From contig NZ_JALIEB010000004.1 of NCBI RefSeq assembly GCF_025755255.1, positions 1-64,000 on the forward strand: DNA of 64,000 nucleotides. The letters run 5' to 3'. Every line of letters starts with the position of its first letter. The first letter of the stretch is position 1. This document shows, piece after piece, positions 3,274-8,035 of the stretch. This DNA is from Roseobacter sinensis (lineage in GTDB: Bacteria; Pseudomonadota; Alphaproteobacteria; Rhodobacterales; Rhodobacteraceae). Below the pieces are notes generated by a model. It was not told the DNA's origin, did not search any database, and was given only the letters and a program-made list of their open reading frames with translations. Made by a program: the position numbers and the translations under genes.

Positions 3274-3951
3274 TCAGATCGAGCCGGGCTTCTCTTTCGA
3301 AAAAATTCGATCTTTCCGATCTTTTGGCTTCTTGTCGGCTGCCGCAGCGGAGACGCGCAGATGTGCTTCCCACAAGACGAAACCGACTTGTCTGTCGATC
3401 GTGAACAACCAGCCCACCAGCCACCCGGGATAGGATCGGAACCCTGAAATACGGAGCGTGCGCAGGAAGCCGTCGATGCCTTCGTCGCACAGCGGAGAGC
3501 GATAGGCATCATCGATCAAGACCGGATGCCGAACGCGCAGCCATCGCAGATCGGAAACGATGGTGTGCACCTGCGGTTTGAAGATCTTCTGATCATGACG
3601 TCTTTGCCAGGCCGTCTGGGCATCTGCGATTGCAGCCTCGGCTTCCTTTTCGCGCGAGTGGTAGGCGCGTCTGAGCCCGGATTTGCGCACCAGCCAGAGC
3701 AAGCGCCCTTCGGTTGAAATCGCACGACACGCCGTCACCGTCCCGCAGGGGCTTATTGTGCAGTTGGATGGATCAACCCAGGCGGATACCCAATCAGAGC
3801 GATCAAAGACCAGCTTGTCCGGAAGCACGTCCAGCGACTGCGCGGGACCAGACGGCCTTGGACGCTGGGCGGTCAGGGTCTGCTTGAGACGTTTCTTGTT
3901 TGGACTGAGAGACGCCCGAATGCGAGCGAGATGGTAGAGTGCACGAGCCAT
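3274..3951 (-). CDS. Hypothetical protein, 225 aa
   Basis: A soluble, basic protein of 225 residues with a Lys/Arg-rich start and an ADKKPKDRKDR tail. It has no signal peptide or membrane helix; the hydrophobic patch YPGWLVGWLFTIDRQVGFVLW near residue 185 could be a buried strand or an amphipathic segment. The start at 3951 is well supported by AAAGGA six bases before the ATG; a longer frame to 4089 lacks this. It sits directly upstream of the BCCT transporter on the same strand, which suggests one transcript. I do not recognise the family. Confidence 0.65.
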   Translation of the reverse strand: MARALYHLARIRASLSPNKKRLKQTLTAQRPRPSGPAQSLDVLPDKLVFDRSDWVSAWVDPSNCTISPCGTVTACRAISTEGRLLWLVRKSGLRRAYHSREKEAEAAIADAQTAWQRRHDQKIFKPQVHTIVSDLRWLRVRHPVLIDDAYRSPLCDEGIDGFLRTLRISGFRSYPGWLVGWLFTIDRQVGFVLWEAHLRVSAAAADKKPKDRKDRIFSKEKPGSI

Positions 3952-4085
3952 GATGCTTCCTTTGAACAGGCCGTCATCCGCGGCGATGACGGAGCGGGGG
4001 TGTCGCGTGAATGAACGGCAGGTGCTGCGATCGGGGGGTCGGGTCGCAAAGGCACCTCTGGTCCGTCCTCCACTTTGGCGGCAGT

Positions 4086-4748
4086 TCATTTCCGGTGGCG
4101 GACATCCGCAGTACTGATGGGATCGAATTCGTCCACCGCCAGCGCAACGAGGATGCCAAGTTCACTCACGGTTTCGCCATCCGGGTGTGGAGCGAAGGTC
4201 GACGACTCGACGACCTGGGTGGCGGAGATTGAAAGCAGTTGGCTGTAGTCCTCGTTGAAGTTGAGGAAGAAATTCATGTAGCCGACGTTGTTGGCCCCAT
4301 CGGCCCCATCCGAGACGTAAAGAAGGCCCCCCAAACCGATGTACTGATCCGTCAGCACGGGCTGTGGCTCGATGGCCGTGTCGTCGGGGCGCAGAACTGG
4401 AACACGCGGACCTTGCCAATTGAACAGGTAGGCCGTCACCTCGCCCTCGCGTTGGGTGTCGCAGGTCTGGGGATCGCCGATCGAAACGGGCAATCCGTGA
4501 CCAATCGTGTGAGGGACCTGCTGCGGTGCACCGGCCGGCGGGGTGAATTCGGCGTCGAACGGAGTGCCTGTCAGTGGCAATTCGAAGGTGTACGTGGTCG
4601 AGCCACGTACCGGATCAACGTCCCCCTCGCCAGCGGTCCAGGTAAACTCTCCACTCACATTGATCGTATCGTTTTCGACTGTCAGCGATGCGGCGGACGC
4701 CGTCGTTACGAACACGGAGAGAGCGACTGAGCTCAGAACATACTTCAT
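4086..4748 (-). CDS. Secreted protein, paralog of the VPLPA-CTERM protein at 7253, without anchor
   Basis: The 220-residue product begins with a signal peptide (residues 1-19, cleavage near ASAA). The mature part aligns along its length with the product of 7253-8035: both have GEFTW/GDFEW, GEGxxDPVRxS, TYTFE/GYTFE, GTPFDxxF, MNFFLNFxEDxSQL, SISATQV, VESS/IESS and DEFDPI. It ends abruptly after DEFDPISTADVRHRK, exactly where the paralog continues into a proline-rich linker and C-terminal sorting signal. Nothing resembling the anchor is found in any frame downstream, so it is either naturally anchorless (released) or truncated. AGAGG precedes the ATG. A promoter element shared with the paralog lies at 4850-4890. 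The molecular function is unknown. Confidence 0.75.
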   Translation of the reverse strand: MKYVLSSVALSVFVTTASAASLTVENDTINVSGEFTWTAGEGDVDPVRGSTTYTFELPLTGTPFDAEFTPPAGAPQQVPHTIGHGLPVSIGDPQTCDTQREGEVTAYLFNWQGPRVPVLRPDDTAIEPQPVLTDQYIGLGGLLYVSDGADGANNVGYMNFFLNFNEDYSQLLSISATQVVESSTFAPHPDGETVSELGILVALAVDEFDPISTADVRHRK

Positions 4749-4849
4749 GAAAACCTCTATACTTTACAAACACTTGGTAGATAGCCGCAGCGCTCACGAG
4801 GGCGTGACCCTCTCCGAAGACAAGGCAATCACTGCGCGTTTCGAAAGAG

Positions 4850-4890
4850 TACGGCCTCGCCGTGGAGCGGCGCGTCACCCGAATGGGTGA
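4850..4890 (-). promoter_or_regulatory. Shared palindromic promoter element, copy 1
   Basis: Read towards the 4748 gene, this is TCACCC-ATTC-GGGTGA, then CGCGCC, seven unconserved bases, and GGCGAGGCCGTA. The same block with the same 7-base gap lies before the paralog at 7119-7159; outside the gap 32 of 34 positions agree. The arms TCACCC/GGGTGA form a perfect 6-bp inverted repeat. The block ends 101 bases before the ATG. It is likely an operator or activator site, and the LuxR-type gene between the two paralogs is the obvious candidate binder (inference). Confidence 0.65.
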
Positions 4891-5068
4891 ATGGAACGAA
4901 AGAGAATTTGGCAGGCTCGGTTTTTCAGCGGTAACCCGCCGATGATGCGGCGCGAAAAGCAGCAATCTGCCAATCTATCGTGAAAAATTATTTTACAGCC
5001 CCGGATGATCTTCGAGCCGCCGGGAAAAGCGGTATGCTTCCACATCTTCAAGACGATTTTGATTTCAT

Positions 5069-5088
5069 GCGCGCGAATTTTCGCGCGC
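5069..5088. promoter_or_regulatory. Inverted repeat before the LuxR-type gene
   Basis: GCGCGCGAA, two bases, then TTCGCGCGC: a perfect 9-bp inverted repeat ending 24 bases before the ATG at 5113. It could be an autoregulatory operator or a hairpin in the mRNA leader. There is no following T-run, so it is not a classic terminator. Confidence 0.45.
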
Positions 5089-5112
5089 TTTCGCGAGTAA
5101 TTGGAGTATTGT

Positions 5113-6885
5113 ATGACGAAGAAAAGATCGGCGCCGCCCGTCGGCGCCCGTTCCGAAATTATCAGCCGCCTTTACGATGTCGCACTCGACCCGGCCCGCT
5201 ACGAGGAATTGCTCGATCTGTGGGAGAAACGGGTCAGTGACGTGCGACCCGGTTCGATTGATCAGGGGCGAATATTCTCGGATCAGGAGATCGAAGCGCA
5301 TAGCAGAAGAGCCAACGTCTTTCTCGATCGGACGGAGCCATCGAGCGACGCCCGCGAAACCCTACTGGTTGAGTTCCGGACCGCGGCGGCCTTCATTGTC
5401 GATCCGTCGCTTCGCGTGAGCGCCGCAAACCCGGCAGCGGAAGTCTGGCAGGGCGTGCAGTTGGGTATGGCGCTATCAGACCTGCCGTTCGACGCCGAGG
5501 CCAGCGAACATCTGGAGCATAGTCTGAGGAGGGCCTTTGCCGGACGTGGACCGCAGATGCTTCAGATTCGAGTTCGCTCGACGAACTCCAATCGCGCGGC
5601 GCTTCTTCAGATCCGCGTTCTGCCCGGGGCCGATCCCTTCGCCTTGATCGTAACGTCCGAATTCGAATGGCCCGTGACGCTCGACAGCATCCTCGCCGAG
5701 GCGTTTGGCCTGACGCCGTCGGAGATCATCGTGATCCGCGGCCTCGTCGAAGCATCGACCATAAAGGAGATTGCAGAGCAGCGCGGCAGATCGATCGAAA
5801 CGATCCGGACCCAACTCAAGGCCATCTTTCAGAAGACCCAGACCCAAGGGCAGGCCGAGTTGATCCGGGTCTGCCTGTCGTTGATGAATATCGTCGCCGT
5901 CACAGAAGCCGTCAGCCGAACGGCTCCCCAGAGCAGTAGCGGCAGCGCGCGGCTCGAGCCGCGTCCGTTCCATACCCTGAAGCGACCCGAAGGACGTCGC
6001 TTTGACTACCTCATTCTTGGCGACCCCCACGGGCAACCTGTTCTCTTCCTGCCGCTCGACTACGGCCTGGTGCGCTGGCCCGCCAAAGCCGAAGCCGAAG
6101 CCGCACGGCGCAGATTGCGGGTCATCGTCCCGATCAGGGCGGGGTTCGGCGCATCGACAGCCCTGCCGCGTGAGGTCGCAGCCGTCGCCTATGGCCCGGC
6201 CTTGGCGGCAGATGTGCATGCGCTGCTCGATCACCTCGATGTTTACCGCTGTCCGATCATCTCGCTCGGCAACGACAGTTGGTATGCGCACCATATCGCA
6301 GCGCATCGGCCCGACCGCATCACCGGAATTCTGATGAGCGCCGGGACGCTGCCGATGACCAAGGCGAAACAATATGAACGCATGGGCAAGTGGCATCGGT
6401 TCATCACGGCCAATGCGCGCTACGCGCCGACGGTCTTTCCCTTCATGGTCAAAGCCGGCTTTAGCCTGGCGCGACGTGTGGGGCGTCGGAGCTTTCTGCA
6501 TGCAGTCTATGGGGACAGCCCCGCCGATCTTGCAACAATCGAAGAGCCGGAGACGCTGGAGGCGATCTTGTCAGGATCCGAGATCGCCCTTTCAAAAGCG
6601 CACAGCGCGCACGATGCGTTTGCCCGCGAGGTGGTTGCCAAAACGCTCGACTGGAGCAACGTCGTGAAGGCCTGCCGCTCGGTGCCGACGCATTTCCTGA
6701 CGGGCGACGAGGACAAACATGCGCCTCCGGAAACCGTGAATGAATGGGAAGTGGAATGGCCTCATGTCCACTTCGAACGGATCAAGGGTGCCGGGTACCT
6801 GCTCTTCTTTCAACACTGGGAGTTGGTTCTCGATCGGCTCAAGACCATGATGGATGCCACAGCCGGGAAAGGGGAGGGCGCGTGA
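5113..6885 (+). CDS. LuxR-type regulator fused to an alpha/beta-hydrolase domain
   Basis: 590 residues in three parts. Residues 85-180 resemble a PAS-like sensor (FIVDPSLRVSAANPAAEVWQ). Residues 190-258 are a LuxR/FixJ helix-turn-helix (LTPSEIIVIRGLVEASTIKEIA, then SIETIRTQLKAIFQKT). Residues 295-580 are an alpha/beta-hydrolase fold. The nucleophile elbow reads LGNDSWYA (385-392): the serine of GxSxG is replaced by Asp388 and the last glycine by Trp390. An acid-turn GDEDKHAPPE is present (531-540), but the place of the catalytic histidine is Tyr562 (GAGYLL). The domain may thus sense a ligand rather than hydrolyse it. ATG 5113 follows TTGGAG at 6 bases. It sits between two paralogous secreted-protein genes whose promoters share an element. 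Confidence 0.85.
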   Translation: MTKKRSAPPVGARSEIISRLYDVALDPARYEELLDLWEKRVSDVRPGSIDQGRIFSDQEIEAHSRRANVFLDRTEPSSDARETLLVEFRTAAAFIVDPSLRVSAANPAAEVWQGVQLGMALSDLPFDAEASEHLEHSLRRAFAGRGPQMLQIRVRSTNSNRAALLQIRVLPGADPFALIVTSEFEWPVTLDSILAEAFGLTPSEIIVIRGLVEASTIKEIAEQRGRSIETIRTQLKAIFQKTQTQGQAELIRVCLSLMNIVAVTEAVSRTAPQSSSGSARLEPRPFHTLKRPEGRRFDYLILGDPHGQPVLFLPLDYGLVRWPAKAEAEAARRRLRVIVPIRAGFGASTALPREVAAVAYGPALAADVHALLDHLDVYRCPIISLGNDSWYAHHIAAHRPDRITGILMSAGTLPMTKAKQYERMGKWHRFITANARYAPTVFPFMVKAGFSLARRVGRRSFLHAVYGDSPADLATIEEPETLEAILSGSEIALSKAHSAHDAFAREVVAKTLDWSNVVKACRSVPTHFLTGDEDKHAPPETVNEWEVEWPHVHFERIKGAGYLLFFQHWELVLDRLKTMMDATAGKGEGA

Positions 6886-7118
6886 CCTCGGCCGGATGCC
6901 CCCTGACGTCCCACACGCTCCCGCCTGCTCAGGTCCGCATCGGTCCATCCGGTCGTCCGGGGATCGACGCGTACCGATTGCGGGCCAGGGTTTTGGGCAG
7001 GCGACCGTTGTCGCGGCGTCTCCCCGTCAGGCCCTTTGGCAAATTGCCGCCGGTTGCGCGCACCCGCCGGCAGCTTGCTGCCAATCCGCATCGCCGAGCT
7101 CAAGAGGAACGCGGCTGC

Positions 7119-7159
7119 TCACCCGTTCGGGTGACGCGCCTGCCGCGGGCGAGGTCGTA
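7119..7159 (+). promoter_or_regulatory. Shared palindromic promoter element, copy 2
   Basis: TCACCC-GTTC-GGGTGA, then CGCGCC, seven bases, and GGCGAGGTCGTA, ending 93 bases before the ATG at 7253. It matches copy 1 (4850-4890) in orientation relative to the gene, in internal spacing and nearly in distance to the start. The 7-base gap and the flanks have diverged, which suggests selection on the block rather than only shared ancestry. Confidence 0.65.
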
Positions 7160-7186
7160 GCGTTTGTCCTGTCCGGTGCCTCGCGG

Positions 7187-7252: not shown

Positions 7253-8035
7253 ATGAAGATCCTTTTTTGCGCCGGCGTTCTTTCGGCGGTCGCGCTATCG
7301 GCACAGGCCGCAACCGTTTCTGTCGATGATGGGACAGTGCGGCTGACCGGAGACTTCGAGTGGATCCCCGGCGAGGGTTTCATCGATCCGGTTCGGTCCT
7401 CGGCAGGTTACACGTTCGAGATGCCGGTCGCAGGCACGCCGTTCGATCCAAACTTCTCGGCGCCGCCTCCGGTCGGCCAGGGTTCCCCCCCGGTCATTGG
7501 CGACAACATCTCGGTAACCGTCGGCAATCCGCAAACGCGCGACGTCGAAAGGTCTGGCGAGGCGCGGGGCGCCGTTTTCAACTGGAATTCACCGCTCGAT
7601 CCCATCCGACGGCCGGATGGCGAGATCATCGATCCACAGCCGTTCCGTACCAGCCAGTATGTGGACTTCAACGGGTTCCGCTATGTCACCGATGGGCCCG
7701 ACGGGACGAGCAACATAACGACCATGAACTTCTTCCTCAACTTCAGCGAAGACTTCAGTCAGCTCACGTCCATTTCGGCGACTCAGGTGATCGAGTCCTC
7801 GATCTTCGTGCCGATCCCGGGCGAAGATCCGACTGTCGCCACCGGCTTTCTCGTCGCTTTGGGGCTTGATGAATTCGACCCCATCGATGTTTCCGATGTC
7901 GGCGGCGGGCCAGGCGAGCCTGCGCCACCTGTCACGCCAATTCCGTTGCCTGCAGCTGGCTGGATGCTCGTCGCTGCAATCGCCGGTCTCAGCGGGTTTG
8001 GGCGGATGCGATCGCGGACGCGCAGGTCTGACTGA
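7253..8035 (+). CDS. Secreted protein with VPLPA-CTERM sorting signal
   Basis: 260 residues: signal peptide 1-19 (cleavage after SAQA), a beta-rich body paralogous to the product of 4086-4748, a linker VGGGPGEPAPPVTP, and a C-terminal tripartite signal of IPLPAAGW, a hydrophobic stretch to about residue 250 and a basic tail RMRSRTRR. This is the VPLPA-CTERM type of exosortase/archaeosortase sorting signal found in many Rhodobacterales. Proteins of this class are exported, cleaved by an exosortase encoded elsewhere, and retained or released at the cell surface, often with exopolysaccharide. GGAG lies eight bases before ATG 7253. The shared element at 7119-7159 and a 16-bp palindrome lie upstream. 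The body has no recognised enzymatic motif. Confidence 0.85.
   Translation: MKILFCAGVLSAVALSAQAATVSVDDGTVRLTGDFEWIPGEGFIDPVRSSAGYTFEMPVAGTPFDPNFSAPPPVGQGSPPVIGDNISVTVGNPQTRDVERSGEARGAVFNWNSPLDPIRRPDGEIIDPQPFRTSQYVDFNGFRYVTDGPDGTSNITTMNFFLNFSEDFSQLTSISATQVIESSIFVPIPGEDPTVATGFLVALGLDEFDPIDVSDVGGGPGEPAPPVTPIPLPAAGWMLVAAIAGLSGFGRMRSRTRRSD

Follow-up and report, generated by a model that had tools for sequence, protein, structure and literature searches.

A palindromic candidate operator on both flanks of a LuxR-type regulator gene in Roseobacter sinensis, with related sites beside homologous regulators

Two genes for paralogous secreted proteins lie on either side of a regulator gene in Roseobacter sinensis, and the question raised by this locus is whether a sequence element found upstream of both is the operator through which that regulator controls them. 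The stretch of DNA analyzed (64,000 nucleotides, hereafter the window) carries the 41-bp element twice: copy A at 4850-4890 on the minus strand, before the ATG at 4748, and copy B at 7119-7159 on the plus strand, before the ATG at 7253. The two copies are identical at 33 of 41 positions overall, at 32 of 34 outside a seven-base gap and at 1 of 7 inside it. An earlier note on this DNA had described the pair in these terms, with 32 of 34 fixed positions shared and with differing gap and flanks, and the description holds; the distances that it gave from element to start codon, 101 bases for copy A and 93 for copy B, were confirmed in the window sequence. No other 41-mer of the 64-kb window agrees with copy B at more than 25 of 41 positions.

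The gene on the minus strand (4086..4748) encodes a protein of 220 aa without a recognised C-terminal sorting signal and has a homolog in locus L073, and the gene on the plus strand (7253..8035) encodes a protein of 260 aa with a VPLPA-CTERM sorting signal. Aligned over 216 aa, the two products share 49% identity, and by eye both appear to start with a signal peptide. The 7253 product scored 29.0 bits against TIGR03370 over residues 230-253, which is above the curated cut-off of 25.35. The 4748 product stops near the point at which the extra C-terminal part of its paralog starts; it gave no Pfam or NCBIfam match at E 0.1, hence none to TIGR03370, and its L073 homolog gave no TIGR03370 match. 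The genome encodes an exosortase (a single gene, on contig C17; PF09721, E 2.3e-67), and the 7253 protein thus resembles the substrates of the VPLPA-CTERM/exosortase (PEP-CTERM-like) sorting system. The likeness extends to the neighbors of three distantly related regulators of the genus, which also pass TIGR03370, whereas the 4748 paralog lacks the signal and the homolog in genome G359 has RTX repeats instead. That homolog is the only one among 393 other sampled genomes of the family; the homolog in G003 lies outside that sample.

The palindromic part of the element, TCACCC-N4-GGGTGA, is not scattered over the genome. Exactly two perfect sites were found in its 4,895,392 bases, both flanking the regulator gene: operators A and B. 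The longer 22-mer TCACCC-N4-GGGTGACGCGCC is likewise matched perfectly only twice in the whole genome, both times at the window locus. When one mismatch was allowed, the palindrome occurred at 24 sites in the same genome. Thirteen of these were fetched; 12 lie inside open frames of 274 aa or more, the remaining one in a 128-aa frame of coding-like composition, frame length alone being a weak criterion because operators A and B themselves fall in frames of 116 and 138 aa that are due to chance. A general promoter element of VPLPA-CTERM genes was considered and ruled out, because the exact palindromes are confined to this locus, despite eight other matches in the genome that cover the sorting-signal stretch, none of them at an exact palindrome. 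The 22-mer was also rejected as a family-wide motif: at two mismatches it was matched in 56 of 99 genomes (own included), and most of the matches have a broken arm. One of the two-mismatch matches, G003:C3:8009, is the true ortholog site.

The extent of the element was judged from orthologous promoters. The closest regulator among 19 genomes of the genus is that of G003 (L073), about 81-82% identical to the window regulator, and that of G359 (L074) is 70% identical. An exact TCACCC-N4-GGGTGACGC lies before the homologous secreted-protein gene in both loci, within flanks that differ, and neither promoter repeats the CGCGCC or the GGCGAGGYCGTA part. Of the motif sought in orthologous promoters, the palindrome and 'CGC' were recovered and the rest was missing. 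The 41-bp spaced element cannot be regarded as a single recognition unit, as had been proposed, because only the palindrome and 'CGC' recur. The comparison largely supports an operator of 16 bp, TCACCC-N4-GGGTGA, rather than the whole element. Candidate operator A (TCACCC-ATTC-GGGTGA) would then occupy 4875..4890 on the minus strand, and the same exact palindrome precedes the homologous gene in L073 and L074; candidate operator B (TCACCC-GTTC-GGGTGA), recognized by sequence match and in the genome scan, would occupy 7119..7134 on the plus strand.

The three distant regulators of the genus (27-30% identity) each adjoin a gene that passes TIGR03370. In one of these genomes (G014, locus L077) an exact palindrome lies before the VPLPA-CTERM gene adjoining the 30%-identical regulator; no such palindrome was found upstream of the VPLPA-CTERM neighbors in L075 and L076. 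The regulator genes beside these last two (3724-5418 in L075 and 8309-9961 in L076) each contain an in-frame stop, which suggests that both copies are decaying.

By their position, the remaining parts of the 41-bp element may be read as promoter. CGCGCC would fill the -35 slot, at 4869..4874 on the minus strand in predicted promoter A, where it is placed by its position relative to the -10 'TA', and at 7135..7140 on the plus strand in predicted promoter B; GGCGAGGYCGTA would comprise the spacer and the start of the -10. The predicted -10 hexamers are TACTCT in promoter A (4846..4851, minus strand; GGCGAGGCCGTA ends inside it) and TAGCGT in promoter B (7158..7163, plus strand). The centre of the palindrome is followed, about 32 bp on, by the predicted -10 'TA', which is found at positions 40-41 from the palindrome start in copies A and B as well as in L073 and L074; in L077 it is absent from positions 39-41. 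This spacing puts the palindrome centre at about -42.5 (relatives) to -43.5 (window) relative to the predicted starts. LuxR acts at a lux box near -42.5 in class II activator promoters, and the similar predicted position of the window palindrome suggests an activator-like (class II) geometry.

The regulator gene (5113..6885, plus strand) encodes a protein of 590 aa with a PAS-like region, a LuxR-type helix-turn-helix (HTH) and an alpha/beta-hydrolase-like domain. The HTH region spans about residues 188-257 (5674..5883) by the GerE match and the family alignment. The GerE match itself covers residues 200-253 (E 0.0021) at 18.1 bits, below the Pfam cut-off of 23.5. A profile of six homologs searched against the PDB matched RcsB (1p4w) at E 7.9e-7, and also hydrolase structures. 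The protein therefore appears to belong with the LuxR/FixJ-type (GerE) HTH proteins, its GerE score being below the cut-off, and there is in addition a weak PAS_4 match. No autoinducer-binding domain was found among its Pfam or NCBIfam matches at E 0.1; that domain defines the LuxR proteins of AHL quorum sensing, and the regulator falls outside them. The earlier description of a LuxR-type regulator is accordingly to be narrowed to the HTH, which is fused to a degenerate alpha/beta-hydrolase domain. Two structure predictions, with mean pLDDT near 43, were too poor to use.

The hydrolase-like domain (5971..6864, plus strand) has Gly at the aligned position of the nucleophile. Among 106 homologs this position is occupied by Gly in 50, Met in 15, Leu in 11, Ser in 9, Asp in 6, Ala in 5 and other residues in the rest, counts that depend on the alignment. 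With Gly in place of the catalytic nucleophile, which is usually Ser, the window protein does not look like a hydrolase enzyme. Receptors of the alpha/beta-hydrolase fold with lost or altered catalysis exist, for example the gibberellin receptor GID1. The window domain resembles GID1 in being hydrolase-like and in having lost the catalytic serine, and ligand binding is suggested because of that loss; it differs from GID1 in being fused to a LuxR-type HTH, and in occurring in bacteria. The degenerate domain is perhaps a sensor of a small ligand.

The association between palindrome and regulator was then examined across the family. A regulator profile search gave 113 matches in 97 of 394 sampled family genomes (own included). 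Ten weak or partial matches and one tandem copy inside L187 were left out, and the 106 loci examined (100 fetched regions, the window and L073-L077) amount to 1,180,523 bases. The exact TCACCC palindrome occurs eight times in these loci. Seven of the occurrences are no farther than 300 bp from a regulator end, and the remaining one, in L077, lies before the gene that adjoins the regulator; five of the eight belong to the four founding loci. Without the founding loci, exact sites of this type were present near the regulator in 3 of 102 loci and in 1 of 991 distant block pairs; with one mismatch, the counts were 5 of 102 and 5 of 991.

Two related types of palindrome, TACCCC and TGACCC, were found in the same loci. 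Counts for the general form T-N2-CCC-N4-GGG-N2-A are 36 in the 75.5 kb close to regulator ends and 10 in 920.7 kb elsewhere, and it ranks first by loci among all classes of outer letters and core that were enumerated. When the three types were pooled, an exact site lay within 300 bp in 24 of 106 loci and in 1 of 991 distant block pairs, counts that are partly so by construction, two of the three types having been discovered in the loci counted. At up to one mismatch the figures were 48 of 106 against 10 of 991 distant controls, and at two mismatches 76 of 106 against 80 of 991; the loci are related, so that Fisher p-values for this pooled test overstate its significance. A site with at most two mismatches was present in all 46 loci of a main group (profile score 400-560 bits) and in 30 of the 60 others. 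The 30 of 106 loci in which none of the three types was found at up to two mismatches all lie outside the main group.

All 46 loci of the main group have a TACCCC-type palindrome at -30 to +130 bases relative to the last codon of the regulator, when up to 3 of its 14 fixed positions may differ. It is 3' of the regulator gene, mostly within about 50 bp of the stop codon and once at about 90 bp. A40 is the most conserved base of this group beyond the palindrome and a short 3' extension (0.9 bit), and in 13 TGACCC-like loci T39 (1.0 bit) and A40 (0.8 bit) are frequent, being absent from some.

Operator type follows the regulator phylogeny. On a tree of 103 of the 106 loci (rows over 420 aa) it requires 18 changes, compared with a mean of 44.4 after shuffling, and none of 200 shuffles gave a value as low. 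The window, L073 and L074 form a clade with a support of 100, which adjoins the regulators of TACCCC type through weaker forks. Sites of TGACCC type pair with Asn in the recognition helix (8 of 9 at up to one mismatch). Covariation of the recognition helix was set aside as independent evidence, the column ranking 71 of 544 by mutual information.

These observations suggest that TCACCC-N4-GGGTGA is very probably the operator of the regulator encoded between both genes; activation would be the expected mode of control, with less confidence than the operator itself. The proposal of the earlier note, a dedicated operator of a two-gene regulon under its own LuxR-type regulator, is partly supported: it agrees with the exact sites, with their conservation before homologous genes and with the enrichment in the family. 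Its 41-bp extent and the type of regulator needed revision, and binding and the direction of control are what we infer.

A further reading is that the adjacent regulator represses from the palindrome, or that a different regulator binds there. We consider this unlikely. A site next to the -35 region can also block polymerase, and the identity of the palindrome-binding protein is itself inferred; set against this, the predicted spacing is similar to that of class II activation, with -42.5 as the position for LuxR, the genome has exact sites nowhere but on either side of this regulator gene, and regulators close to each other on the tree tend to share an operator type. Within this reading, a different binding protein is much less likely than repression. 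It is more doubtful still that the genes were duplicated together with their promoter and inherited the shared element as a relic, with no specific operator. The paralogy of the two proteins at 49% identity fits such an origin, as does the downstream arm, which is common to the window copies and not to the orthologs and does look inherited. The palindrome, however, is nearly unchanged between copies whose gap and flanks differ, it recurs in L073, L074 and L077, and related types are found across the family. That the palindrome is an RNA hairpin (a terminator or attenuator) rather than a DNA site is highly improbable: six-base arms and a four-base loop could pair in RNA, and the main-group palindrome mostly follows closely on the regulator stop codon, but no T-run follows the palindrome in the main-group or window sequences inspected, the palindrome lies upstream of the predicted -10, and copies A and B and the TGACCC type precede a gene instead of closing an operon.

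If the palindrome is indeed the operator of this regulator, a dimer of the LuxR-type HTH would bind it next to a weak -35 region and would most likely recruit RNA polymerase, the promoter -10 'TA' being about 32 bp past the palindrome centre. Recruitment would switch on both secreted paralogs, the one with the VPLPA-CTERM signal and the one without, and the degenerate alpha/beta-hydrolase domain would probably sense a small ligand. The arrangement resembles that of LuxR/FixJ (GerE) class II activators in the LuxR-type HTH, in the site adjoining the regulator gene, and in a perfect inverted repeat that precedes the centre of the predicted -10 by about 33-34 bp. It differs in that no autoinducer-binding domain was found, in the hydrolase-like domain that follows the HTH, in half-sites of ACCC/GGGT type, and in an output of surface-type proteins or a predicted small RNA.

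The output in relatives was sought downstream of the main-group palindrome, where no obvious shared protein was seen in the two loci inspected. By a simple rule, intrinsic terminators were found in 24 of 46 main-group loci compared with 7 of 46 shuffled sequences (one shuffle each), and 12 of the 24 end 128-141 bases after the palindrome start. In one sub-clade, for which 14 of 17 rows were aligned, 10 of 15 pairs of the terminator stem have both partners changed in at least one sequence. Downstream of the main-group operator an RNA of about 85-90 nt is predicted, because of a start near position 51 and the position of the terminator. Rfam searches of ten loci at gathering scores returned only a tRNA; there were sub-threshold matches for one further stretch and none for another. 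The predicted RNA is at L153:4763-4962, L162:6739-6938, L173:4763-4962 and L178:6723-6922 and in other main-group loci, and often has a TTTTCCCC-like stretch together with the covarying terminator.

The window locus seems to be one form of a wider module, with secreted proteins in place of RNA as its output. We give about even credence to the wider proposal that a one-component switch, in which a LuxR-type HTH joined to a degenerate alpha/beta-hydrolase sensor reads a palindrome next to the gene that encodes it and drives an output at the same locus, is widespread in this bacterial family and apparently undescribed. The main-group output would be the small RNA of about 85-90 nt; the window lineage would have replaced it with secreted proteins of exosortase or RTX type and retained operator and promoter geometry. 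Literature searches, covering titles and the starts of abstracts, returned no description of the regulator, the operator or a link to VPLPA-CTERM proteins. VPLPA-CTERM itself is mentioned in a study of a denitrifying reactor. A PEP-CTERM gene in a floc former is, by the title of the report, RpoN-dependent (PMC9850573), i.e., a regulated exosortase-type surface-protein gene; going by that title the case is sigma-54 dependent, whereas a LuxR-type regulator and a palindromic operator are proposed here.

An uncharacterised regulator family would thereby be linked to a particular DNA site and to particular outputs. The ligand of the degenerate-hydrolase sensor and the control of exosortase-type surface proteins become directly testable, and the locus points to a predicted small RNA without an Rfam match at gathering score in the loci searched.

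Most regulators of the family appear to have no VPLPA-CTERM neighbor, because a relaxed regular expression for the VPLPA tail matched in only 7 of 106 loci. Among these, genes of the window, L075, L076 and L077 pass TIGR03370; the matches in L073 (at its far end), L169 and L172 were left out of the count as likely chance frames.

The secreted gene of L074 (9271-11253, genome G359) has the secreted domain fused to RTX calcium-binding repeats (PF00353, E 1.1e-70), and the secreted domain of the window proteins thus occurs with different C-terminal ends. A clearly related protein, judged by eye, is encoded after the secreted gene in both the window (3274-4089, minus strand) and L073 (6415-7176, minus strand), and perhaps shares a transcript with that gene.

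The octamer GTGAGTGG occurs 23 times near regulators compared with 4 times far from them, the occurrence in the window itself being coding sequence and not counted as evidence. In 23 loci, e.g., L221, L222, L223, L230, L145 and L149, the octamer is no more than 500 bp from the regulator; with operators of the TACCCC type and of the TGACCC type alike, it is frequently found downstream of the operator.
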